Shown: positions 12,428 to 47,207 of the stretch, piece by piece | How positions within the stretch are numbered: position 1 is the stretch's first letter | Layout of the letters: each line of letters starts with the position of its first letter | Position numbers and translations under genes: made by a program | Notes under the pieces: model-generated | Database searches by the model: none | What the model was told of the DNA's origin: nothing | What the model saw: the letters and a program-made list of their open reading frames with translations, nothing else | Source of the DNA: a virus | Length of the DNA: 47,207 nucleotides | Direction: 5' to 3' (one strand) | IMG/VR virus record: IMGVR_UViG_3300009130_000049 | Location: 1-47,207 of that record

Positions 12428-12547
12428 TTACTTACCTTTGGTTTTACAGTTAGGGCAAACATGATAGCCCACATCTCTGAATCTCAACAGAGTCCAGAAC
12501 TCACTACGACACTTGCTACAGTGCTTCAGCATCTTAAGTCTTCTCAT
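12428..12547 (-). CDS. 39-residue zinc-ribbon miniprotein
   Basis: ATG at 12547 overlaps the NrdJ stop in an ATGA arrangement (12544-12547). The peptide is very basic and contains CSKC and CPNC pairs 19 residues apart, a minimal zinc ribbon. Coupling to nrdJ and the intact four-cysteine pattern argue that it is a real gene. It might bind nucleic acid or act with the reductase, but neither can be shown from sequence. Confidence 0.7.
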   Translation of the reverse strand: MRRLKMLKHCSKCRSEFWTLLRFRDVGYHVCPNCKTKGK

Positions 12548-16888: not shown

Positions 16889-17386
16889 TTAGGCTACCTC
16901 TTGCTCCGCCAACATCTTAGTCACCTTGTCTAAGGTTGAACGACCACTAGCAAACGAGGTGATTTGAGGGGCCAAAGTCAGAGCCACCTCCAGTACGTCT
17001 CGTGAGCTTGCGCCCTCTGGCATAGTAGCAATAGCAATAGCGGTAGCGTGAGCCATAGAGTTCTGGTTAATGATTACATTCTGACCATCGTCTGCTGGTA
17101 CTGGATACTTAATACTCCCTCGACCGCCGCTACTTGGTGCAGGTCGGGGTGAGCTACCAGCACTAACAACTTGCCCACCGCCAGCGGCCATAGGTTTCCA
17201 CTGGTTCCACTTATCCTTCTCAATGTTCTTATCAAAGGGGTCGCCTACGGTATGCCCCTTCTCCCAGCCTACATTGATCTCCTCACCGAAGCTGTCTACC
17301 GTAAGATAACTAAGAGTGAAGGGCTTACCTGCCTTGCTTACTTTGTTTTCTTTACGGATATTGGTAATGGTTCCTTTAACTTGCAT
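16889..17386 (-). CDS. Putative single-stranded DNA-binding (OB-fold) protein
   Basis: 165 residues from the ATG at 17386. An AAGGAGG nine bases upstream favours this start over one 11 codons earlier. The N-terminal 50 residues look like an OB fold (MQVKGTITNIRKENKVSKAG, then alternating beta residues ending NVGWEKGH). A Gly/Ser/Pro linker follows around residues 65-90, then a helical C-terminus. Its position between polymerase and the Cas4-like nuclease fits an SSB that coats unwound strands. The usual acidic C-terminal tip of SSBs is absent, so the call is moderate. Confidence 0.6.
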   Translation of the reverse strand: MQVKGTITNIRKENKVSKAGKPFTLSYLTVDSFGEEINVGWEKGHTVGDPFDKNIEKDKWNQWKPMAAGGGQVVSAGSSPRPAPSSGGRGSIKYPVPADDGQNVIINQNSMAHATAIAIATMPEGASSRDVLEVALTLAPQITSFASGRSTLDKVTKMLAEQEVA

Positions 17387-19412
17387 TGTTTTTATCCTCC
17401 TTCGGATAGACTGTCTCAAACTCTAGTTTAAGGGGTACTTCAATCTCTACGTTAGTCCACTGTTTGTATAGTACAGGCAGAACATCTTCGCAGAGAGTTT
17501 CTAATACGTTAGTTACATTATGATTAGACATAGAATTCTCTGTAAAGTTCCCGTCACCGTATAAACTATCATGAACAGTGTTGGTGAATAGGAACTCCTT
17601 GAGGTACTTCTGTTTGTCATAGTATCGTTGGAATGTGTGCGCTAGGGCTATATAGGTCGGCACTATATCTCCAGTAGACCAGCCTTGTGATCTGTAGTTA
17701 CAAGCGTGAGTCCAACTAGGCTCCATCTTACCTGAGAACTTACTCTTGTACTCCTTATAAAAGAAGCTCCGGCCCGTCTCAGACATAAAGCGCATGGTCG
17801 CTACTTGTTCCCCATTACTGTTAAACTCAGTAGAGTATGAGAAACCTCTGCGCTTTAGTCTGTTGTGGAAGTCCTTATAGAAAGCCTTTAGTGTGGGGTA
17901 TCTATCAAAGAAGGCATCGCACACTTGTTTCACTACCTTGGTATCTACTCCAGATTCGCTGGCTAACTTTTTAACACCTCCTCCGTAGATAGTTCCGAAC
18001 ACAATACCCTTAACTGTTCTTCGCATCTCTGGCCCTAAGCCTACTTGTTTGCTGACGGTATCGTGAATGTCTGTTCCGGCTAATAGATCGGCCAGCAACT
18101 GCTTATCTCCTGATACGTGAGCTGTACCACACACCTCAAGCTGCTTAAAGTCTGGGGTAAATCTACCGTAACTAGAATCAAATCGGTTAACGAACAGTTC
18201 ATCAATCTCTTTGGGCATATTCTGTAGATTGGGACGACTGCTACTTAACCTACCTGTAGCGGTAGCCGCTTGGTTAAATGTACCGTGTATAGTATCGGTC
18301 TTATATTCCGACAAGTACTTACCTATCGGTTCGATATAAGTACTCAGTAACTTGTTACACTTACGCCATTCTTGTATCGTTTGTATATACTCACCTGCCG
18401 GTGTCTTTGGGTCAATTTCCGAAAGCAGCTTCGTGAGGTTCTTATCGTTGACTGAGAAGCCTAGAGTTTTATTCGGGATACCTAGTATTTCTTGCAGCTC
18501 CCCGTGGCTTATGACGGGAGGTATCTCATAAAGTTCCTCGTAAGTAACGAACTTAGGATTACCATTCTTATAGTTCCCCTCTTGGCGGCGGCGTTTGATC
18601 TTGATAGGGAATCCTAATATAGCTTGGTTAATTGATCGGTTGGTCGTTAGTTTAGAAAGGACTGCTTCCTGTATTTCAGGCGGAACCATAGCCCGCCTAA
18701 AGTATTCCCTAATGTAAACACGCATAAAGGACTCTAAGGTATCGCGCTCGTTCTGTAGTTTCATAGAGGTCTTGTATAGCTTGGACTTATCTACCTTGAT
18801 ACCATTCCACTCCATCTCTGCTAGGGCCATAGTAGTCCTCGCTGCTATGTTTACCAAGACCCGTTGTTTATCGCTTAGTTTAAACCATAGATGTGTAAAG
18901 CACTCAGCCGTTACATCTACGTCCCTTGTTAAGTACTCAGCCAAATCCTCTCGGCGCATAGTTTCTGTAGTACCTCCGTTCTTGATATGCTCAGAGAGAC
19001 TATCTAGTTTACCATCTGCTAAACCGCAGAACTCAGCAATCTCATCCAGTTTAGCAAACGGAGTACCTGTGATAAGGTGGTACATCACCTGCAAATCATA
19101 GGCCATCACTATATTTTTGAAATAATCAGGATCACCGTGCTTTCTAAGATAGTGCAAATCAAACTTAACATTCGTACCTACTACTGCGATGGGTGTTGGG
19201 TAGAGAAAGACGTGTATATCCTCCGGTATACGAGTACGAGTATCAGTTTCAGTTAGTTTTTTATAGCCAACTAACAGCGCCTTGTTGTCATAGTAGAAGG
19301 GATCAGCACTAAACTCACCGGGGCTTCGCATAGTGCTCTCAACATCAACGGCATATAACGGGATAACCTCTCCAAAGTGAGTTCCGTCTATTATATCATC
19401 TACTATTTTCAT
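17376..19412 (-). CDS. polA: Family A DNA polymerase with 3'-5' proofreading domain
   Basis: 678 residues. It replicates the phage genome. Exonuclease motifs: AVDVEST (D23, E25), NVKFDLHYL (D85), YLTRDVD (Y160, D164). Polymerase motif A is PDFKQLEVCGTAHVSGD (D421). The O-helix is RRTVKGIVFGTIYGGG (R465, K468, F472, Y476), with phenylalanine at the position equivalent to E. coli F762. Motif C is TVHDSLYGD (H614, D615). Motif A normally reads ELR where this protein has EVC, so the conserved Arg is replaced by Cys. No 5'-3' exonuclease domain is present. It overlaps the helicase gene by four bases. Confidence 0.95.
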   Translation of the reverse strand: MKIVDDIIDGTHFGEVIPLYAVDVESTMRSPGEFSADPFYYDNKALLVGYKKLTETDTRTRIPEDIHVFLYPTPIAVVGTNVKFDLHYLRKHGDPDYFKNIVMAYDLQVMYHLITGTPFAKLDEIAEFCGLADGKLDSLSEHIKNGGTTETMRREDLAEYLTRDVDVTAECFTHLWFKLSDKQRVLVNIAARTTMALAEMEWNGIKVDKSKLYKTSMKLQNERDTLESFMRVYIREYFRRAMVPPEIQEAVLSKLTTNRSINQAILGFPIKIKRRRQEGNYKNGNPKFVTYEELYEIPPVISHGELQEILGIPNKTLGFSVNDKNLTKLLSEIDPKTPAGEYIQTIQEWRKCNKLLSTYIEPIGKYLSEYKTDTIHGTFNQAATATGRLSSSRPNLQNMPKEIDELFVNRFDSSYGRFTPDFKQLEVCGTAHVSGDKQLLADLLAGTDIHDTVSKQVGLGPEMRRTVKGIVFGTIYGGGVKKLASESGVDTKVVKQVCDAFFDRYPTLKAFYKDFHNRLKRRGFSYSTEFNSNGEQVATMRFMSETGRSFFYKEYKSKFSGKMEPSWTHACNYRSQGWSTGDIVPTYIALAHTFQRYYDKQKYLKEFLFTNTVHDSLYGDGNFTENSMSNHNVTNVLETLCEDVLPVLYKQWTNVEIEVPLKLEFETVYPKEDKNNAS

Positions 19413-20653
19413 TTGATACTCCCAACAGAAGTGAACCTACCGAGGTCTTCATCGAACTTAGCCTCGAACTTACCATGCCTAGCGTTCTTATGCATACGTC
19501 CGGTCGTAGGTTTCTTGTTCTTAGGTATGCTAAAGAACCTACTATATGGAAGGTCTGGGTCTTTGCCAATCATTATCATAACATCAGCCTCTCCTTGTAC
19601 ACCAGTCTTAGAGCCATATAGTTGAGTCTGATCTAGGTACTGCTGGCCTTCGGCAGAAGCATCTGCTTGTGCAATCGCTACTACTGCTCCATGCTCCTTA
19701 GCAGTACGTCTACTAAACTCTGCTAGTTTCCTATAGCGAGCGATCTCGTCCATATTCTTATAGCCTCCTATCTTATCCAGCACGTTGAGTCCTATCAACC
19801 AACAGTCGGGGTTAGCTCTAAGTACTCGCTCGATATCTTGCACTGACATACCCGGCTGGTCATAGATATAAATCTTACGGTCATTAAGATACTTATTGTA
19901 AGCCGTCTCTACTGATGCGGGGTCTGCTTCGATAGCGGTGCTGTCTACACCTAGTGCTGACTGGATCACTCGCAGTCCAATCTTATTACCTCCTTCTTCG
20001 TTATTAAAGATGATGGCGTTCTTACCCTCCGGTAGTTGGTTAAGCATATAGGTAAACTCTGAAGTTAAGAAGCTAGTGCCTCCACATTCAGGTCGCTTAC
20101 CGACTAGGATGAAGTCTCCTTCGTGTACTTGACCTACTGTTAGATTCAAATCATCCAATCGCCAAGAGATTCCCGGCCCCTTAATGACCTCATCTACTAG
20201 CTTGGATACGTCCATGTCTACAAAGTAGTCCTCTTTAGGAACTAGAGTACTCTGATGCCTCTCCATAAGAGAGAATATCTTATCTACACCATCGGTGTTG
20301 GACTTTGATTCAATGGTTTTTATACACTCCTGTATATCCTCGGATAACTTTAGCTCGTTAAGGCGGGATACTACTCCAACGTCTAGCGTCTCCTTCTCAG
20401 TGGTATCTAAGATCGCGTCTACTATATCGTGCCAAGTAGGTTTAGCGGTGGGGTGTTGGTCTATGTGTATGAAGTTGCGTAAGTCACTCCACTCAAAAGA
20501 ATCCTCTTTGGGATTCTGGGTATACCATTCTGAAATATCATCAATGATTCCGGCGCACTCTTTGGTTAAGCGAAAGCCTCGGATGTATTTGATATACTCA
20601 TCATGCCTCTCCCTGCTATTAAGTAGGGCGATTAGTTTAGTATCTTTAATCAA
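19409..20653 (-). CDS. DnaB-like replicative helicase with altered Walker A and B motifs
   Basis: About 414 residues. The start is probably the TTG at 20653, four bases after GGAGAG; a TTG at 20665 is also in frame. The RecA-type core is clear: a catalytic-Glu element IIFNNEEGGNK, then AIAQADASAEG and YGSKTGVQGEADVMIMIG, typical of SIO1-type phage DnaB proteins. The Walker A segment reads VGKRPECGGTSF, with Gly where the phosphate-binding Lys should be. The Walker B segment reads CWLIGLNVLDKI, with Asn where the Mg-binding Asp should be. It lies between primase and polymerase, where the fork helicase belongs. Whether it hydrolyses ATP normally is open. Confidence 0.85.
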   Translation of the reverse strand: MIKDTKLIALLNSRERHDEYIKYIRGFRLTKECAGIIDDISEWYTQNPKEDSFEWSDLRNFIHIDQHPTAKPTWHDIVDAILDTTEKETLDVGVVSRLNELKLSEDIQECIKTIESKSNTDGVDKIFSLMERHQSTLVPKEDYFVDMDVSKLVDEVIKGPGISWRLDDLNLTVGQVHEGDFILVGKRPECGGTSFLTSEFTYMLNQLPEGKNAIIFNNEEGGNKIGLRVIQSALGVDSTAIEADPASVETAYNKYLNDRKIYIYDQPGMSVQDIERVLRANPDCWLIGLNVLDKIGGYKNMDEIARYRKLAEFSRRTAKEHGAVVAIAQADASAEGQQYLDQTQLYGSKTGVQGEADVMIMIGKDPDLPYSRFFSIPKNKKPTTGRMHKNARHGKFEAKFDEDLGRFTSVGSIK

Positions 20654-20666
20654 AACTCTCTCCAAA

Positions 20667-21596
20667 TTATGTAGTAAGTTGTTTTACTACGGCAGTAAAT
20701 AGTTCCTTATCCACCATGTGCTTTGGTTCTTTAGGCTCAGTATAAAGTACAGTCTCGCACATACCTAAAGTAAGTAGACTTTGTGCTATATCCGCAGCTT
20801 GATTCAGTACTACTTTGCTGTCGTTGTCTAGCCACACCAGAATCCTATCGAACTGTTCAGCATACCTATAGAGAGACTCAATCCTTATGAATGTACCGGC
20901 CAAAGGTAGCGCCCAAACACCAGAACTACCAGCTACTTCCGCTACTCTAATAGAAGATAGCAAGTCCTCGGTAATTACTAAGAGCCTAGTATCATTAGAG
21001 AAGTCACTACTAAAGGGGTAGCTACGATCATCATCACTGTCTCGACCTAACTTATAGCCTAAGTACTTGATTTTCTGTGTACTTTCTACGGCCCTTAGCT
21101 GCACATAACTGGCTTTGTCATGGTCGTCTTTTGGGTAGAAGTACATTAAGCGGTGCATCTCTGAATCAAAACAAATGTTATACTTATGTATTTGCTCTCT
21201 AGTTAAGTGGGCGTTCCTAAGAATTGTTTTAGCACTATCGGGGTATTCATTGAGCTCCTCCGGTGTAAGTAAAGAGTGAGGGTCTGGACTGTACTCATAG
21301 TTGCGAGCACTTTTAAGGAATTTGTTCGTCGGTAAGTAGTCCTCATAGCTTCCACCAATGCTATAGCAAGTGTTACGAGTGTAGCTATCAGAGCGAGCCC
21401 TAACCATGTTAGAGCCTCCGCAGTTGTGACAGTAAGCCAAACGTACATCAGGTTTGCCATCAGGTATGGTGATATAAAGCCTACGTTTAGTGTCCTCTCC
21501 CGCTGGGCATCCCTCGTGGTTGAATCTATAAGTCCCCGGCTGTTGGGTATGAGGTACTAGTTTGTTAATCAGTCTCTTGGTTATCTTGTCTGCCAT
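20667..21596 (-). CDS. DNA primase (zinc-binding plus TOPRIM), separate from the helicase
   Basis: 309 residues. The N-terminal zinc site is HEGCP plus CHNCGG (HxxC and CxxC instead of four cysteines). The central region resembles the primase linker and RNA-polymerase domain. The TOPRIM motifs are LLVITEDLLSSI (catalytic Glu) and RILVWLDNDSK (DxD). It makes RNA primers at the fork. T7 fuses primase and helicase in gp4; here they are two adjacent genes. The final codons lie one base before the helicase frame, and a zinc-finger gene overlaps its start. Confidence 0.88.
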   Translation of the reverse strand: MADKITKRLINKLVPHTQQPGTYRFNHEGCPAGEDTKRRLYITIPDGKPDVRLAYCHNCGGSNMVRARSDSYTRNTCYSIGGSYEDYLPTNKFLKSARNYEYSPDPHSLLTPEELNEYPDSAKTILRNAHLTREQIHKYNICFDSEMHRLMYFYPKDDHDKASYVQLRAVESTQKIKYLGYKLGRDSDDDRSYPFSSDFSNDTRLLVITEDLLSSIRVAEVAGSSGVWALPLAGTFIRIESLYRYAEQFDRILVWLDNDSKVVLNQAADIAQSLLTLGMCETVLYTEPKEPKHMVDKELFTAVVKQLTT

Positions 21597-21732: not shown

Positions 21733-22141
21733 CATCATTCCCCGTAAAGGTAGGCAAGGTATAGTTATACTCCTCGAACAAAGCTAGACTCTCCTCACTC
21801 GGTGAGCCTACAGTTAGAGCGGCCTTATCTAGTAGTGCTTGACTAGCCTTATCTAACTTACCATAAGAACTTAGGGCTATCGTAGCATCACGGAATAGGT
21901 AGGTGTAGTAGGCGCTGGTGGTGTTAGCCCACTCAGCAATACTAAATAACTTACGGCTATTTAGATTATCTCTATAGCTAGTAACACAATAGTAGATACA
22001 ACACAACCACGGCAACACTCCCATGAAGTCGTGGTTCAAAGCACTGACCCCTGCCGCAAGACCAAAGACTATAACACAAGCGACTACTGTATACTTGTGA
22101 ACATTACTAACTAACTTCCCTTTGAAAATAACTTCGCTCAT
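21722..22141 (-). CDS. Two-span membrane protein
   Basis: 139 residues. Two hydrophobic helices lie near residues 17-35 (YTVVACVIVFGLAAGVSAL) and 40-55 (MGVLPWLCCIYYCVTSY). A soluble helical C-terminal part of about 80 residues follows. The start overlaps the CobT-like gene by four bases. The presence of a membrane protein in a replication operon is unexplained; it might anchor a complex or act on the envelope. The family was not recognised. Confidence 0.65.
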   Translation of the reverse strand: MSEVIFKGKLVSNVHKYTVVACVIVFGLAAGVSALNHDFMGVLPWLCCIYYCVTSYRDNLNSRKLFSIAEWANTTSAYYTYLFRDATIALSSYGKLDKASQALLDKAALTVGSPSEESLALFEEYNYTLPTFTGNDDEM

Positions 22142-23961
22142 TTTATTACTGCCTCTTTTAAAGTATCAAGTAAAACATTATCTAACTCAGAAACACTTTC
22201 GATTACCTTATAGTTATTATAGAATCTCTCTACGTTCTGATCTAGTATTCCAATAGCATACAAATCTATATCTCCTCGTGATTGTATATCTTCTGTAACT
22301 AGAGACAGACCTACGGCAGCGTCTCCTCCCTCTACACAAGTAGGACAACCATCACTTAATACGATTAAGATTTTGCGTTTCTCTTTCCTCTTAGCTAGTC
22401 TCTTAGCTGCCCAACATAAAGCATCGGCATCGTGATTACCTCCACTATCCTTAGTGAAGCGAGTAAACCTAGCGGCTATGTCCTTGTCAGTATAGTTGGT
22501 GTCTGAGAAGGCTTTTACTATCCCATTATTAAACACCTTTCCCTTGTAGTGGCTGTAATCATACCTAGTAGAGAAGGTAAGTAGTTCGACAGGTATATGT
22601 AGACTCTTATCGAACACATTAAGTATTCTACTAGCAGCAGCACAAGCCACCTCTCGTTTCTGTCCCCCCATAGAGCCCGACCAATCTACTAAGATTGTAA
22701 CACAAGTGTCGATGGACATACCTTCAGTCTTGGTCTTAAAGATACGTTGGTTCCAGTCTGTTGTACCTATAGCTACCCTAAAAGTATTTCGTTTATGTAT
22801 CTTGCCCGACTTCCTCTCTGTCTGTAACCTAGAGCGTGTCTGTACTTGTATGTACTTTCTTATTTGATTGCCTAGCAGTCTAGTGTCTAGGTCAGAGCTA
22901 AGATATTTACTATCAGGTTCCGGTAACTCCTTCATTTTATTAAGGTTTATCTCTATCATTCTATCAGGTGATGCTGGTTCCCATTTGTCTAAGCTGTTAT
23001 CATAGTTGGAATAATCTATAGACATACCCGCAGTAGGTTCAGCGTCACTCCCTTGTATATCTTCGGAGTGCTGTAACACTTCCCACGGAACAGTTTCAAA
23101 TTCGGTACGAACTTCAGTAGCCTTACCTTTATCACTAGTCTCCTTATCTTCTCCCTCTCCTTGCGTTTCATCTCCAGCTTCAGCCTCAGTTGACTCTCCC
23201 TCGCCGTTAGAATCAGGTTCGGGTTGCTGTTCCTCCTCAGTCTCATTATCTTCGGATTCAAACTCACCATAGATTTCCTTATACAAGTCTTTGGTAAACT
23301 CATATACCTCATCAGGTGTGCTTGTAGAGTTAAGTCTAGTATCCCAACCATCTGTCTTTAGTTTGTTGGCTAGTTCTTTAGACTCCTCTGGTATCGCTTC
23401 GGCTAACTTGTGGTTAGCACTAGTTCCTATCATGTCCCAATCTCGGCGGGACTCTAAGGCAAATAAAGATACGGCTTGTTGCTTTATATAATCCTCCGAG
23501 CTTGTTTGTTCTTCTGATAGACTAGAACTTACATCAGCTAACTTGCCTACTGTAATAGCTAGACCGGCTCCCAAGTCTATCTTATCTCCTAAGTACTTCT
23601 CACAATGGACTCTCTCCATAGCGGTATCTTCGATAAGATTCCAGATAGAATGTAACCGCTTCATATTCTCCTTAGAGGTGGGATAGTCTAGTTGATGTTG
23701 CTCCAATAAATCATAAGTCCGTGACCTAGTAGCATGAATAGGCTCATGTATATACATACGTTTAAGTAGTATGCTATCTTCATGAGACATAGGGTAGCCA
23801 CGGAAAGGTAGGGATATAGTCTTTCTTCCGTCTGATGTTATCTCACAATACGGTACAGTACTGTCGCTATCTAGCTTAACCACTACGCCCATCTGCTCAC
23901 TACGCCGCTGGACTATAGCTTTCAAGTCCCAATCACTAACAACTCTACTCTTTAAATCCAT
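22138..23961 (-). CDS. CobT-like VWA-domain protein with N-terminal HEXXH motif
   Basis: 607 residues. The N-terminal region has MYIHEPIHATRS (HEXXH at 72-76) and NLIEDTAME about 35 residues later, a zincin-like arrangement seen in CobT-type proteins. Residues 234-280 are a strongly acidic linker. The C-terminal VWA domain has the MIDAS motif VDWSGSM (D426, S428, S430), an acidic D510/D512 segment and VLSDGCP (D537). In cobaltochelatases, CobT binds Mg through the VWA domain and works with the AAA+ protein CobS, which is encoded eight bases upstream here. It may help B12 synthesis or be a MoxR/VWA-type chaperone in the phage. Both options are inference. Confidence 0.8.
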   Translation of the reverse strand: MDLKSRVVSDWDLKAIVQRRSEQMGVVVKLDSDSTVPYCEITSDGRKTISLPFRGYPMSHEDSILLKRMYIHEPIHATRSRTYDLLEQHQLDYPTSKENMKRLHSIWNLIEDTAMERVHCEKYLGDKIDLGAGLAITVGKLADVSSSLSEEQTSSEDYIKQQAVSLFALESRRDWDMIGTSANHKLAEAIPEESKELANKLKTDGWDTRLNSTSTPDEVYEFTKDLYKEIYGEFESEDNETEEEQQPEPDSNGEGESTEAEAGDETQGEGEDKETSDKGKATEVRTEFETVPWEVLQHSEDIQGSDAEPTAGMSIDYSNYDNSLDKWEPASPDRMIEINLNKMKELPEPDSKYLSSDLDTRLLGNQIRKYIQVQTRSRLQTERKSGKIHKRNTFRVAIGTTDWNQRIFKTKTEGMSIDTCVTILVDWSGSMGGQKREVACAAASRILNVFDKSLHIPVELLTFSTRYDYSHYKGKVFNNGIVKAFSDTNYTDKDIAARFTRFTKDSGGNHDADALCWAAKRLAKRKEKRKILIVLSDGCPTCVEGGDAAVGLSLVTEDIQSRGDIDLYAIGILDQNVERFYNNYKVIESVSELDNVLLDTLKEAVIK

Positions 23962-23969
23962 GTATCACC

Positions 23970-25076
23970 TCACTTATCTATAGTTTCACCGAATACTTGG
24001 CGATAAATATCTGCGAGTACCTCCTTGTCGGTGTCTTGGGCTGAGTTATATACAGCATAGCGGAAGGCTTGGCCTATATTTCGCAAGTCCTCTATGCTCT
24101 GGCCCCATGATAGAAGTTCTCGGATGGATATAGTCTGCTCTAGTTTGTTAGTAGTGAACCCAGTCCTAGCTAGGCCCGCGACTTTAACCATCTTGTCTAT
24201 AAAAAACTTAGGCATATCCTTAAACTGTTTTTGTACTAGCTCAATCTCCTCGTCTGGTTTTAGATAGTCTATGTAGACACTACGTCTAATGCGGTTAAGG
24301 GTAGATACATCTTGAATCTCCGCCGTAAACTTACCGCTAGTATCTCCAGTGCCGTTAGTGTTGTCTGTTAGTACTAACTTAAAGTCATGAATCGGTGCTG
24401 CTAGGTTGCGGCTAACACCTTGAGCGTCCTGTAGGTTAAGAACATGGGGGTACTCAAAGGTGGACTGCAAAGCCATCAAACAGTGTGATGGTATACGGAA
24501 CACCTCATCCAGTACTAATAGACCGCCGTGCTTAACTGCGAGAGTGACATCTGTATCACAATGCTTTGTAATAGGGGTGTTAGATACAGGGTCAGTGGTG
24601 ACTTGAGTACTACCCAACAGCTCAGAGACTTCCATCTGTCCGTGACCTGACACTCTAAGGAAAGGCATACAACACTGCGCTGCAATCTCTTTAGCGATAC
24701 TTGTTTTGCCTGTCCCAGTAGGGCCATACAATAACAGAGTACCCTTTGAATACATCCCATACATTACCTCCTCTATAGTCTCAGCGTCTAGGTGGTAGTC
24801 AGTGTCTCGCTCAGGGATTAGGTGACGTACCTCCTCTGCCCAGTACTCCTTATCATAAAAGGGTACGGGTATATCAGGTATAGTAGTAGGTTCCCAACCG
24901 AACACCTCACTAAAGTATAGCTCGTTGTCCTCTAGCTCAAACTCTTTTGGTGTACCTAAATAACTATCTACCTTTTCATCCTTTTCTAGTACTTGACTAA
25001 ACAGGTGAGACTTATCTTCGGTGTTCTTTAGTCTATCATATATCAAAGACTCTAAATCTTTATCTGTACCTGACAT
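23970..25076 (-). CDS. CobS-like AAA+ ATPase
   Basis: 368 residues. Walker A is YGPTGTGKTS (118-125), Walker B is GLLVLDEVF (186-191), sensor 1 is LTDNTNGTGD and the arginine-finger region is LNRIRR. The TDNTNGTGDTSGKF block followed by a partner-binding segment is characteristic of CobS rather than of MoxR proteins in general. CobS-type rings drive the cobalt chelatase or remodel a VWA partner. The CobT-like gene follows directly, so the two proteins probably form one machine. Residues 1-60 are acidic and may regulate ring assembly. Confidence 0.85.
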   Translation of the reverse strand: MSGTDKDLESLIYDRLKNTEDKSHLFSQVLEKDEKVDSYLGTPKEFELEDNELYFSEVFGWEPTTIPDIPVPFYDKEYWAEEVRHLIPERDTDYHLDAETIEEVMYGMYSKGTLLLYGPTGTGKTSIAKEIAAQCCMPFLRVSGHGQMEVSELLGSTQVTTDPVSNTPITKHCDTDVTLAVKHGGLLVLDEVFRIPSHCLMALQSTFEYPHVLNLQDAQGVSRNLAAPIHDFKLVLTDNTNGTGDTSGKFTAEIQDVSTLNRIRRSVYIDYLKPDEEIELVQKQFKDMPKFFIDKMVKVAGLARTGFTTNKLEQTISIRELLSWGQSIEDLRNIGQAFRYAVYNSAQDTDKEVLADIYRQVFGETIDK

Positions 25077-32632: not shown

Positions 32633-34488
32633 TGGCTGATAAGATTGAACTCAAACGGATAGACAAGAACACTGATGTCCAAGGCATCAATGATAATTCC
32701 GCCACTATCGAAGAGGCCATCACCAACACTCTTAGTCGAGATGGTACTACTCCAAACCACATGGAGGCCGACTTAAACCTTAACTCAAATAGAATCACTA
32801 ACCTGAAAGATGGTACTAACCTCAACGATGCGGTCACGCTTCGTCAGTTAACGGAAGCTGACGCGCTGAATATCGTAGGCGACCCTATCTCTCAAGACAT
32901 TATCGGAGAGACCTTTTACCCCGTAGAAAGCGGTTCTATGGAGTATCTCTCTGGTTGGAGAGATCGAGGAGACGACTCAGTACTCTCCGCCTATAACGTC
33001 AACAACAACTATCCCGTAGGAGATGTGCGGCGCTATAACGTAGTACCCAATAGCACAGCCGATCAAAGTGCTCTGATACAAGAAGCCGCAAACATCAAGG
33101 ACGCAGGGTCCAACTACCAAGACCTCTTGTTTGCCGAAGGTACTTACGTTATCACCTACGTAGAGTTCGGTAATCAGAACGTCCGATTTAACGGAGGCGT
33201 ACTCAAACAAGCCGCAAATAGTATCGTCTCAGATTGGAACACCAGCCTCACAGTGTATGGTGTCTCTTACCGAGACGGAGCAAGTTGGATTAACTTCCAC
33301 GACTTCGCGTTTGACGGCAACACTACTAATCAACCTTACATCGGTAGCACCGCCACCGCCTTTAAAGCGGCAGGGTTCTACGGAGAAAACGATGAGACCC
33401 TAGGAGGCACGAAGTCAAGTTACCCTGAGCGTATCTTGTTCGTAGGTTCTACCGTAGTGTGGGACACTCACGGAGACGGTATCATAGGTAACGATACGTC
33501 CTCTATCCAGATAGCAAACTATAAACCTTTCCGCAACACGGCTCCCGCCTTTAAGGACAGTGAGTGGTTGAGGGGTGGGTCAGACTATCGTATGTCGGTA
33601 GGTGTAAGTAACGTACCTGCCTTTCGCGCCGCTACTCCCGCAGACCTACAGAGTTCCTTCTCAGGGTTTGTATCCCAACCTCAACCGGGAACGAGCGTAG
33701 TCCGAATCGGTGCGGGTGTTTGTACTGACCAAGGAAACAAAATCTGGATCAGGCACGACAGGCCCGTTGATGCGGGAGGTCTCTACACAGAGATAGACTT
33801 AGCGAATCAGTGGAGTCCCTCCAGCGCCGGATACGCTTTAGGTACTGAGACGACTTATGACTCAACCTACCCTTGGTTTGAGGTGTTCGTAGTCAGTAAC
33901 GATGATGGAGACATCTCGTTCGTAATCGACAACGCCACAGACTACCACGTATCCGAAGGAAACGTATACGAAGGTTCCTCTGTAGCTTTTAACTTAAGAC
34001 AAGACCCTAGCCTGATCTCACAAGGATTTACGTACTATCGCCGTGTGGCATACTTACGTATGAACAGTAGCTCTCAATGGGAAGTTTACGAACAGATAGG
34101 CAATCGTTACATTTGGCAAGAGCCTAGCTTAGAGGCTATCTCTGTGCCGATGCACGGTGCGACAGTACCTTACAAACTAACCGGAGCCCCGGCTCAAGCT
34201 AGAGCCATCGTAGGCATCCAGCTCAACGGTGCAACCACGGGAGTAGGCGGTAAGATTTTCGCACAAGTACGTGAAACATTTATGTTGAACGGTCAAGTTG
34301 GCTCGTACTTCGATGCCATTATTAGGGTAGGTACGGCAGACAAACAACACGTAGCTTACGAGTGTGAGCGCCGAACAGATGAAACACGGGAAATTGAAGC
34401 GGAGTTTGAGCGTGACCTCGGCACGGAGGATTGGGGCACGTATGCTATTCGTTGTCGTGGCTTCGTAGATGACCGCATTGAGCAGTAA
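32632..34488 (+). CDS. Second tail fibre or tailspike
   Basis: 618 residues. The N-terminus (IELKRIDKNTDVQGINDNSA, then IEEAITN) parallels that of the preceding spike. A fibre-stalk motif follows (DLNLNSNRITNLKDGTNLND), as in T7-type fibres. Around residue 135, YNVVPNSTADQSALIQEAAN matches the first turn of pectate-lyase-like beta-helix tailspikes. The remainder is beta-rich with no recognised active site. It starts with a TAATG overlap and its 3' end overlaps the large-terminase start by 20 bases. It is probably a receptor-binding protein. Confidence 0.7.
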   Translation: MADKIELKRIDKNTDVQGINDNSATIEEAITNTLSRDGTTPNHMEADLNLNSNRITNLKDGTNLNDAVTLRQLTEADALNIVGDPISQDIIGETFYPVESGSMEYLSGWRDRGDDSVLSAYNVNNNYPVGDVRRYNVVPNSTADQSALIQEAANIKDAGSNYQDLLFAEGTYVITYVEFGNQNVRFNGGVLKQAANSIVSDWNTSLTVYGVSYRDGASWINFHDFAFDGNTTNQPYIGSTATAFKAAGFYGENDETLGGTKSSYPERILFVGSTVVWDTHGDGIIGNDTSSIQIANYKPFRNTAPAFKDSEWLRGGSDYRMSVGVSNVPAFRAATPADLQSSFSGFVSQPQPGTSVVRIGAGVCTDQGNKIWIRHDRPVDAGGLYTEIDLANQWSPSSAGYALGTETTYDSTYPWFEVFVVSNDDGDISFVIDNATDYHVSEGNVYEGSSVAFNLRQDPSLISQGFTYYRRVAYLRMNSSSQWEVYEQIGNRYIWQEPSLEAISVPMHGATVPYKLTGAPAQARAIVGIQLNGATTGVGGKIFAQVRETFMLNGQVGSYFDAIIRVGTADKQHVAYECERRTDETREIEAEFERDLGTEDWGTYAIRCRGFVDDRIEQ

Positions 34489-36013
34489 GAAAGAACAATT
34501 AAGGATAGCAGCGGAAGCTGATCTCGCCACTTTCATTAGGTTAGTGGCCCCTCACAGAGTCTTGGGCCATGTGCACGAAGACTTAATTAAGTGGTGGGAC
34601 CGAACAGACGCGAAGAGTCATCAGCTAGTTCTGATGCCGCGAGATCACCAGAAGAGTGCTATGATAGGATTTAGAGTAGCTTGGGCCATAACAAAAGACC
34701 CCACACTGACAGTACTCTATATCTCAAGTACGGCAAACTTAGCCGAGAAACAGTTATCCTTTATAAAGGATATATTAACCTCTAAACAGTACCGGACCTA
34801 TTGGCCGGACATGGTAGAGAAAGAAGAAGGTAAGCGTACCAAGTGGACATCCAACGAGATATGTGTGGATCATCCCAAACGTAAAGAAGAGGGAGTTAGA
34901 GACCCAACAATTTTCACCGGGGGACTAACCACTTCACTTACGGGTATGCACTGTAACATAGCAGTACTAGATGACGTAGTTGTACAGGAGAACGCCTACA
35001 TCAAAGAAGGTCGAGACAAGGTACGCCAACAGTATTCCTTGCTGGCTTCTATTGAAACAACGGGCGCAAGAGAGTGGATCGTAGGTACTAGATACCACGG
35101 CTCTGATCTGTACGGAGAGTTGCAAGATATCGTAAAGAAAGTTGTAGATGAGCACGGCAACATAGTTGACCAAGACTATGTGTACGAGACCTACCAGAAA
35201 GAAGTAGAGTCTAATGGAGACGGGAGTGGTGAGTATCTGTGGCCCCGCCAACAGCGTAAGGATGGTAAATGGTTTGGTTTCAATCCAGAAATACTTGCCA
35301 TCAAACGGGCTCAGTACTTAGACACAAGCCAGTTCCGAGCCCAGTACTACAACAACCCTAACGATCCAGACAACCAGAATATCGGAGATGATTATTTCCA
35401 ATACTACGATAGGAAGAGATTAGAAAAAAGGGGTTCGCAGTGGTACGTGAGTGGACAGCCAATTCATATATATGCCGCCATTGACTTTGCGTTCTCCCTT
35501 TCTGCTAAAGCTGACTACTCTGCCCTAGTTGTGGTTGGAGTAGACTCGGAAGGTAATTACTATGTACTGGCTATTGATAGGTTCAAAACAAACAAGATAT
35601 CAGAATACTATAAGAGGGTCATGGAAGCCCACGAACATTGGAACTTCCGAAAGATTAGAGCTGAAGTATCAGTGGCACAGGAAGCTATTGTCGAGTCCCT
35701 TAAAGATAAAATCAAAGAGTCGGGCCAATCCTTATCAATAGATAAGTTTAGACCCACTCGGATGCAAGGCTCGAAAGAGGAGCGTATAGACGCGATACTT
35801 AATCCGAGATATGAGAACATGGCAGTATGGCATTATAGAGGTGGTCTGTGCCAAGAACTAGAAGATGAACTCAGGCAACACAGACCCCCACATGACGACA
35901 TCAAAGACGCTCTGGCTTCGGCTATTGACCTAGCAAAGATACCTAGGCAAATGAAACAAAGGACAGAAAATAACGTGGTATATGATAACAGATTTGGCGG
36001 GATTAAATTCTAA
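34469..36013 (+). CDS. terL: Terminase large subunit
   Basis: 514 residues. The ATPase domain has a Walker A variant LMPRDHQKSAM (about 56-64), an ISSTA coupling-type motif and Walker B IAVLDDVV (164-171). The RNase H-fold nuclease has AAIDFAFS (D339), KADYSALVVVGVD (D349) and the late HDDIKDALASAID. It cuts concatemeric DNA and pumps it into the capsid. It overlaps the fibre gene by 20 bases and the portal start by one base. Confidence 0.93.
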   Translation: MTALSSKKEQLRIAAEADLATFIRLVAPHRVLGHVHEDLIKWWDRTDAKSHQLVLMPRDHQKSAMIGFRVAWAITKDPTLTVLYISSTANLAEKQLSFIKDILTSKQYRTYWPDMVEKEEGKRTKWTSNEICVDHPKRKEEGVRDPTIFTGGLTTSLTGMHCNIAVLDDVVVQENAYIKEGRDKVRQQYSLLASIETTGAREWIVGTRYHGSDLYGELQDIVKKVVDEHGNIVDQDYVYETYQKEVESNGDGSGEYLWPRQQRKDGKWFGFNPEILAIKRAQYLDTSQFRAQYYNNPNDPDNQNIGDDYFQYYDRKRLEKRGSQWYVSGQPIHIYAAIDFAFSLSAKADYSALVVVGVDSEGNYYVLAIDRFKTNKISEYYKRVMEAHEHWNFRKIRAEVSVAQEAIVESLKDKIKESGQSLSIDKFRPTRMQGSKEERIDAILNPRYENMAVWHYRGGLCQELEDELRQHRPPHDDIKDALASAIDLAKIPRQMKQRTENNVVYDNRFGGIKF

Positions 36014-44983: not shown

Positions 44984-47207
44984 GTGTCTAAAGTCCCCGC
45001 AGATAAAACCTTCTTCAACTTTAGTGCTGGCCTCAACACAGAGGCTAACCCGCTAGCTTGGCCGGAAGGGGCATCCTTCGATGAGGAGAACTTCAAACTA
45101 TTAATTGATGGTTCTCGTAAACGTAGGAACCCCTTGAAGGTAGAAGTTGATGGCGAGGAGTATACCTTCTTGCGGGAGGTTGTATCGGGGAGAGACGCAG
45201 TATCGTCCTACACTTGGAGAGACGCGGGAGGCGATCCTGATAGAGCTATAATAGTTATTCAAGTAGGATTAACTCTACACTTCTTTGAGAATAACCCGAA
45301 GCTATCTACTAATAAGTTTGGCCCAGAGATCGAGTTAGCTAACTTTCTACCTGTTGATTCTCCGAGACAGTTGGCCGGTATACGTAAGAACGCAGTATCC
45401 TTTACCTCTGGTCGAGGTGAGTTGTTTGTATCGCACCCATACTTAGAGCCTTTTAAAATCGGTTTAGTTAAGAATCCAGATGATGATGAATCTGTTTTCG
45501 AGATTGAGAATATCGACATACGTGTACGAGAATTCAAAGATATCGAAGACGGTATAGACCTTCTGACCAAACCCAACTCTCTCAAAGAGTCTCATGCCTA
45601 TAACCTAATCAATAGAGGTTGGAAGTATGGTACTAATCAACGAGGTATGTTGGAGTACTACGCTGAGTTTGACAGGTATCCCTCTAAGAATATGGTGGTG
45701 TGGTATGGTGACGTTGTAGTAAACCCCGGCGATGGTGGGGGAGATCAGAACAACTCGTATACCGGAGGCAAATGGAAGGACTTAGGTAACGTAGTACGGG
45801 ACTGGAACCCAGAGAAGATAGAGGCGGAGTTCTTCGGAGACACTTCCGCACCTAAAGGCGCACTTATTATCAATCCCTTTGATACTTCGGTAGCTAAAAC
45901 TCAAGACGTTCAGATTGATGTAGTCGAGTTTGGGTACGAGGTGCGAGGAAACGCTAATGGGCCTACCCCCACTGATAATGTTATATGGATAGATATAGAC
46001 ACTACCATTCCCGGCAGTAAAGTCTTTAGTGTAGGGGAAAAGTTTACCATAATTGGAACAGAAGGTAAGTACAATACCCCAGATATAGACGATGGAGGTT
46101 TTCAGAAACTACTCAACTTCAGTAAAGAAGCGGCAGAGTGTATCGAAGTAAGTGCCGTAGATGGATCAGGTATACAAAGACTATACTACCAATGGAACTG
46201 GCCGGAGCTTTGGAAGTTTTCGGAGGAACCATTCCGTGAGAAACGGTTAGGGTATATTACCATAGAAGATTTCTATAACACAGAAAATGGTAGACAGTTT
46301 TACCGTAGACCTAGAGCTAATGAGTTCTTCGCGGGACGAATGTTCTATGCGGGTATACAGGACGACATTTGGGGAGACCAGATATTCTTTTCTAAGATAC
46401 TGAGAGACACCAAGGATGCCGGTAGGTGTTACCAGAATAACGATCCCACAGACCCAGAGCTAAACTACTTAGTATCTGACGATGGTGGTACTATACAGAT
46501 TCCACAAGTCGGTGATGTAAAAGCTCTAGCTTCTTGGTCAGACGCTTTGTTAGTATTCGCCACTCACGGAGTATGGGCGGTACGAGGAGACCGAGGTGGC
46601 TTTTCAGCGGACGGGTTTAGCGTAGCAAAACTATCAGATGTACCTTCGTACTCAGAGAATGGAGTTACGGTAACAGACGGAGGAGTAATGTTCACCTCCC
46701 CAAGAGGTTTGTACTTCATAACTCTTAACAAATACGGAGAGATGCAAGTTCAATCGGTAAGCGAGCGAACTATACAAACTCTATGGGACGACTTAGAAGA
46801 TTCCCAAAAGAGTAAGGCGCAGTTCTACTATGATGATTACAATAGAGAAGTACACCTCTTATACTCAGACTTTGATGTAGATAGACCTACCGAATATAAC
46901 GTAGACCTTATTTACGACATGGAGTTAGGCGCTTTCTTTAAGTATAGATTCCCACACACACAACAAACTTATGTTTTGGGTATCGCTATGCTGAACTCTG
47001 TGGATGGTTTGACTAGAGAAAACAAGACTAAGTACTTTATCATAGACGATTCCGGTCAGAAGCTATACGTAGCAGACTATAGCGACACAAGCGACTGGAA
47101 CGATTGGACAGGAGACGAGCTAGTTCCTTACCTCATAACGGGCTACGATAATCTAAACGACTTCTCTCGATATAGACAAGCTCCCGTAGTACATACCTTT
47201 ATGCGCT
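44984..47207 (+). CDS. Tail nozzle protein (T7 gp12-like), N-terminal part
   Basis: Begins at GTG 44984, six bases after the previous stop; no nearer ATG fits. The open frame runs to the window end and continues at base 119 of the start, giving an 842-residue protein. The N-terminal segment (FFNFSAGLNTEANPLAWPEG) matches the opening of gp12-type nozzle proteins, which begin with a short arm and an NxxxNPL-type turn. A beta-propeller-like body follows with repeated DGG/GDxW turns. Six copies would form the tail tube. Confidence 0.8.
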   Translation, partial: MSKVPADKTFFNFSAGLNTEANPLAWPEGASFDEENFKLLIDGSRKRRNPLKVEVDGEEYTFLREVVSGRDAVSSYTWRDAGGDPDRAIIVIQVGLTLHFFENNPKLSTNKFGPEIELANFLPVDSPRQLAGIRKNAVSFTSGRGELFVSHPYLEPFKIGLVKNPDDDESVFEIENIDIRVREFKDIEDGIDLLTKPNSLKESHAYNLINRGWKYGTNQRGMLEYYAEFDRYPSKNMVVWYGDVVVNPGDGGGDQNNSYTGGKWKDLGNVVRDWNPEKIEAEFFGDTSAPKGALIINPFDTSVAKTQDVQIDVVEFGYEVRGNANGPTPTDNVIWIDIDTTIPGSKVFSVGEKFTIIGTEGKYNTPDIDDGGFQKLLNFSKEAAECIEVSAVDGSGIQRLYYQWNWPELWKFSEEPFREKRLGYITIEDFYNTENGRQFYRRPRANEFFAGRMFYAGIQDDIWGDQIFFSKILRDTKDAGRCYQNNDPTDPELNYLVSDDGGTIQIPQVGDVKALASWSDALLVFATHGVWAVRGDRGGFSADGFSVAKLSDVPSYSENGVTVTDGGVMFTSPRGLYFITLNKYGEMQVQSVSERTIQTLWDDLEDSQKSKAQFYYDDYNREVHLLYSDFDVDRPTEYNVDLIYDMELGAFFKYRFPHTQQTYVLGIAMLNSVDGLTRENKTKYFIIDDSGQKLYVADYSDTSDWNDWTGDELVPYLITGYDNLNDFSRYRQAPVVHTFMR
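47089..47207. repeat. 119-bp direct repeat of the window ends (second copy)
   Basis: Identical to bases 1-119 and in the same frame of the nozzle gene. Confidence 0.9.

Follow-up and report, generated by a model that had tools for sequence, protein, structure and literature searches.

A probable relocation of the Walker A lysine in a branch of DnaB-like phage helicases

The helicase gene and its genomic setting

The whole stretch of DNA that we analysed (hereafter the window; IMG/VR record IMGVR_UViG_3300009130_000049, 47,207 bp) begins and ends with the same 119 bp (positions 1–119 and 47089–47207). Given these direct terminal repeats, the window probably represents a complete genome of about 47.1 kb. 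On the (−) strand, a DnaB-like helicase gene lies between a separate DNA primase gene and a family A DNA polymerase gene (Table 1), and this order of primase, helicase and polymerase recurs at nearly all of the loci encoding the altered helicase described below that have enough flanking sequence. The helicase open frame runs from 20665 to 19409 and encodes 418 aa from a TTG at 20665; a second in-frame TTG at 20653, which follows GGAGAG and gives a protein of 414 aa, is likelier to be the start. Elsewhere on the (−) strand, CobT-like (VWA) and CobS-like (AAA) genes of the cobaltochelatase type adjoin each other at 22138–25076, and a ribonucleotide reductase gene at 12544–14406 matches the model for the insertion domain of the B12-dependent (class II) enzymes, so that a class II-like reductase and cobaltochelatase-like genes co-occur in this phage.

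Table 1. Positions in the window of the helicase gene, its motif residues and other phage genes
Feature	Position	Strand	Basis
DNA primase, separate gene, upstream neighbour	20667..21596	(−)	PHROG 47 DNA primase, 1.3e-16
DnaB-like replicative helicase gene	19409..20665	(−)	Pfam DnaB_C, PHROG 19, AlphaFold model
P-loop, K190-R-P-E-C-G-G196-T197	20075..20098	(−)	Translation and alignment
K190 (AAG), P-loop position 1, proposed replacement lysine	20096..20098	(−)	Pairing with Gly at position 7
G196 (GGC), place of the Walker A lysine (position 7)	20078..20080	(−)	Alignment, translation
E223, catalytic glutamate (FNNEE)	19997..19999	(−)	Glu in 148/148 relatives
N294 (AAC), place of the Walker B aspartate	19784..19786	(−)	Model, alignment, tree
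Q333, sensor-like Gln closing the next core strand	19667..19669	(−)	Gln in 146/147 relatives having a letter at that column
R376 to KNK 382–384, basic segment	19514..19540	(−)	Conserved columns; aligns with the DnaB arginine-finger region
Family A DNA polymerase, downstream neighbour, overlaps the helicase stop	17376..19412	(−)	Pfam DNA_pol_A, 6.5e-46
Phage terminase, separate gene	34469–36013		

Homology places the helicase among the DnaB-like (SF4) replicative helicases, with matches to Pfam DnaB_C (5.9e-12; 46 bits against a cut-off of 27) and to the DnaB-like helicases of PHROG 19 (8.7e-38). An AlphaFold2 model (pLDDT 92.7) has the entire DnaB architecture, with both the N-terminal helical domain and the RecA-fold C-terminal domain. 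In the PDB it best matches full DnaB chains (E 5e-20), the closest solved folds being those of E. coli, V. cholerae and other bacteria, and the nearest viral model is the ICP2 helicase. The catalytic glutamate, the H3 glutamine and the basic finger segment are all present and are kept in 145–148 of 148 relatives, with the R and KNK residues of the basic segment almost invariant. The alignment thus bears out an earlier note on this DNA, made from its letters alone, which had described the catalytic glutamate and the later motifs as intact.

The two remaining motifs depart from the family pattern. With its flanks, the P-loop translates as V-G-K190-R-P-E-C-G-G196-T197-S, so that H1 (Walker A) has GGT, with a lysine at position 1, where DnaB-like helicases have GK[ST]. 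The Walker B strand (H2) reads L-I-G-L-N294, with asparagine at the place of the aspartate. In the model, strand 185–190 ends at K190, helix 196–208 begins at G196, and N294 closes strand 288–294. As homology places the protein in PHROG 19 but both motifs that define activity are altered, it is a variant branch of the DnaB-like family and not an ordinary member. The absence of the Walker A lysine and of the Walker B aspartate had been reported in the earlier note and was confirmed by the translation, by a second contig and by a gap-free alignment; the note's quotation of the P-loop, RPECGGTS, begins one residue after K190.

That note had also asked whether an alignment would put the true lysine and aspartate elsewhere in the protein. 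It does not: the cultured relatives ICP2, MEP401/402, VP41s3, Atu_ph03, RHph_X3_9, Bf7 and SI01 align with the window's helicase gap-free across both motifs, and they read [AG]-R-P-x-x-G-K-T at the P-loop and a hydrophobic run closed by D at Walker B (ARPNAGKT and LIVID in ICP2, ARPETGKT and LIIFD in MEP402). Motif columns that are gap-free against relatives of 27–56% identity rule out a misalignment concealing these residues. We found no conserved compensating aspartate near Walker B, the residue three past the asparagine being D, E, L or P.

Profile and motif searches of the window genome revealed no second DnaB-like helicase, in agreement with the earlier note. Of the other recognisable nucleotide-binding genes, only the one for the CobS-like AAA protein encodes a canonical P-loop, a normal GPTGTGKT. 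Among phage contigs with the altered helicase, 13 of 14 had exactly one DnaB_C match; in the fourteenth the Pfam profile scored nothing, and the helicase (L061) is known from a profile of our own. As far as these records show, the altered helicase is the sole replicative helicase of these phages.

Paired residues at P-loop positions 1 and 7

Helicases that share the window's P-loop, K-R-P-x-x-G-G-T, are here called swapped, and their relatives with A-R-P-x-x-G-K-T normal. Position 1 is occupied by Ala, Ser, Gly or Thr in normal helicases and by Lys in swapped ones. A profile-guided scan of IMG/VR added 80 relatives, many of them swapped, and among 148 distinct helicases we found Lys at position 1 together with Gly at position 7 in 48, and a residue other than Lys at position 1 together with Lys at position 7 in 100, with no exceptions. 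The pairing was still perfect in the subset gathered independently of the motif (26 and 98, respectively). Columns 190 and 196 were the only ones to separate swapped from normal helicases fully in both the Walker B Asn and the Walker B Asp lineages; the runner-up scored 0.5.

Direct pattern searches of the viral collection recovered no Lys at position 1 with Lys at position 7, and the five matches to Ala at position 1 with Gly at position 7 included no helicase. That the two lysines never occur together suggests a substitution rather than an added function. Scanning DNA for K-R-P-[ED]-x-G-G-T-[ST]-F returned 51 viral loci, every one of them from this helicase family. The swap pattern had four matches in 84,980 prokaryote genomes, none in a helicase, and no match in plasmids. 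Among cultured phages, for which several hundred related records exist, a P-loop peptide search and 10 further isolates yielded GKT only, and all of the swapped helicases found are on uncultured contigs. On one of these contigs, L119, the swapped helicase is broken up, perhaps by a frameshift or an assembly error, into separate open frames of 195 and 304 codons.

A stretch resembling E-D-H-D at helicase residues 306–309 (about 19739–19750, (−) strand) is enriched in swapped rows of both lineages. It occurs in about half of the swapped rows and has a score of 0.5; given this low score and the poor, uncertain alignment of the loop around it, we do not claim it as a third linked site.

These sequences are metagenomic contigs, and an artefact of sequencing or assembly could in principle produce unusual motifs; the earlier note had raised the prospect that GGC is an error for a Lys codon. 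Any Lys codon is two or more bases away from a Gly codon, which means that a single miscalled base cannot yield the glycine; combined, Lys at position 1 and Gly at position 7 differ from the normal residues by at least four base changes. A second IMG/VR contig (L001/L092), which may derive from a sample related to the window's, matches the window at 99.945% over 7,322 bp, with zero differences within the helicase gene. Codons also vary among swapped members, with AAA or AAG for the lysine and GGC, GGT or GGG for the glycine. Together, the second contig, the 51 pattern loci and the varied codons refute the artefact reading, to which we give next to no credence.

History of the two changes and the case for an active helicase

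We masked the P-loop and Walker B columns and built a tree from 96 helicases. On it, the Walker B difference between Asp and Asn maps to one change, and the Asn lineage has 41 rows. The lysine swap takes at least four state changes on the same tree, a count that lumps gains and reversals. Most rows of the Asn lineage have the swap, and so, separately, does a small group nested within the Asp lineage (L048, L061, L103 and L120), to which L149 and L150 are the closest normal helicases. With the reservation that the tree is a quick build and that the AU tests were chosen after it was seen, forcing all swapped rows into one clade cost 187 log-likelihood units and was rejected (AU p 2e-49), and forcing the Asn-lineage swapped rows alone together cost 44 units, a weaker rejection (AU p 0.003). 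The tree thus argues firmly that the paired change occurred more than once. In these four swapped contigs of the Asp lineage, the match to family A polymerase is divided between two frames, which resembles the two DNA polymerase genes of MEP401/402.

Six helicases of the Asn lineage (L025, L027, L028, L033, L057 and L058) keep a normal GKT, and the Walker A and Walker B changes are therefore separable. As read from the tree, the change from Asp to Asn is a separate, older and tolerated one. The heading of the earlier note, which had the helicase lacking both residues, holds in that both are absent; it treated as one what appear to be two independent events, the asparagine being older and found also beside GKT. 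In these six, a normal GKT stands beside a Walker B asparagine that occurs naturally across a whole lineage.

With both classical motifs altered in the window's protein, one could picture a regulatory or structural ring that binds ATP without hydrolysing it, and a passage of PMC5445408 suggests that SAMD9 proteins with GGT/S are possible non-hydrolysing binders. We consider such a ring improbable. The catalytic glutamate is invariant in all 148 sequences, dN/dS between close swapped pairs is mostly 0.05–0.16, indicating purifying selection, the second, independent swapped lineage retains the Walker B aspartate, and the genomes have no other replicative helicase. Some phages use the host DnaB together with a loader of their own, and a dead or loader subunit partnering host DnaB would have precedent in them. 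This is more improbable still: the protein has the complete two-domain DnaB fold, its gene is flanked by primase and polymerase genes of the phage itself, as in ICP2-like and MEP phages, and loss of function is unlikely to give the exact paired change repeatedly. The earlier note had offered both of these roles, and the conserved glutamate, purifying selection and position in a cassette with the sole helicase disfavour them. Its remaining suggestion, an unusual way of binding ATP, is the one of the three that we found supported, although the note had missed the lysine at position 1, its sharing across a large clade and the exact pairing.

On the evidence of sequence and model, we judge it likely that the window's protein is active as a replicative helicase and that Lys190 takes over the role of the absent Walker A lysine. 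Only slightly less firmly, we think that in this family of replicative ring helicases natural evolution has repeatedly shifted the lysine from position 7 to position 1, and that the resulting helicases remain active motors with a different grip on phosphate.

A proposed phosphate grip and its parallels

In a classical P-loop, the lysine at position 7 spans the beta and gamma phosphates, with its amine adjoining the backbone at the start of the loop. We propose a DnaB-type RecA-fold ring motor in which the phosphate-binding lysine would have been relocated from the place of G196 to K190. From the end of the strand that precedes the P-loop, the K190 side chain would approach the beta and gamma phosphates from the opposite side of the loop and reach them, presumably contacting ATP in the same subunit. 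The amine of a position-1 lysine would fill the same space, probably only once the position-7 side chain is gone; glycine at position 7 would clear that side chain, and the need to clear it fits the residue found there. Glu223, Thr197, Gln333 and the basic segment, which by analogy with DnaB may act as an arginine finger, would perform hydrolysis as in DnaB, and the amide oxygen of Asn294 would hold the water bound to Mg. The swapped helicase would thereby hydrolyse ATP and unwind DNA, although the paired P-loop change together with the Walker B asparagine could lower or abolish hydrolysis in the window's protein.

The ATP sites of DnaB are at subunit interfaces, which leaves room for a different role of the same lysine: Lys190 may contact phosphate across the interface or mainly signal between subunits, while the loop backbone and Thr197 hold ATP in cis. 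In keeping with this, the signature lysine of KGGxxGK[ST] proteins, which acts in trans, is one residue away from position 1, and the extra upstream lysine of HK97 TerL has been suggested, in a passage of PMC9410871, to stand in for an absent trans finger. Signature-lysine proteins retain the position-7 lysine, however, whereas here the two lysines never coincide, and the R376/KNK finger segment is kept. We therefore regard a role in trans as unlikely, and favour contact of Lys190 with ATP in cis.

The lysine of GK[ST] is taken as diagnostic of P-loop ATPases; mutating it is the standard means of killing them, and its absence is used to call a protein inactive. A family in which this lysine was replaced exactly and repeatedly, with close normal sisters, amounts to a natural experiment. 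It could show the limits of P-loop rewiring, whether a single-step route is possible, and how many 'dead' P-loop proteins carry the wrong label. If the relocation is true, nucleotide affinity, coupling or inhibitor sensitivity may be altered. Our searches of the open-licence literature turned up no replicative helicase described with a displaced Walker A lysine; the parallel known there is in phage terminases.

The closest known systems are the DnaB-like helicases of Zobellviridae and podoviruses (ICP2 and the Methylophilales phages MEP401/402; PHROG 19), which have full-length homology to the window's protein at 27–34% identity. They share its two-domain fold, gene order, catalytic glutamate, glutamine and KNK, but differ in having A, G or S at P-loop position 1, lysine at position 7 and the Walker B aspartate. 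The six Asn-lineage helicases with GKT share the window's Walker B lineage but not its Walker A change. Proteins of the ParA/MinD/ArsA type (deviant Walker A, KGGxxGK[ST]) likewise have an extra lysine near the start of the P-loop, but theirs is at position 2 and the position-7 lysine is retained, whereas the window's protein has Arg at position 2 and Gly at 7. SAMD9-family STAND NTPases, with a GGT/S P-loop, have glycine at position 7 as the window's protein does, and a passage of PMC5445408 proposes that an upstream residue compensates and raises the terminase case in its discussion; that residue is His, and these are eukaryotic and bacterial signalling proteins, not helicases.

The nearest parallel for the swap itself is in large terminases, which are packaging ATPases of another ASCE branch, and their swap arose separately from that of the helicases. 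The window's K190…G196-T197 has the terminase-type deviant Walker A pattern (Lys at 1, non-Lys at 7, S/T at 8), in a protein that has a DnaB fold and is not a large terminase, the phage's terminase being encoded elsewhere. In lambda gpA, the deviant lysine is numbered K76. It lies N-terminal to the classical place, where lysine is absent, according to a passage of PMC9410871, which also gives the upstream P-loop lysine of HK97 TerL, K57, as essential by mutation. For Mu gp28, it was proposed that Lys64 takes on the function lost at Leu70 (Mitchell and Rao 2004, as cited in PMC7363723), a spacing of six that is the same as between K190 and G196. This terminase parallel suggests that position 1 may be a general second home for the P-loop lysine.
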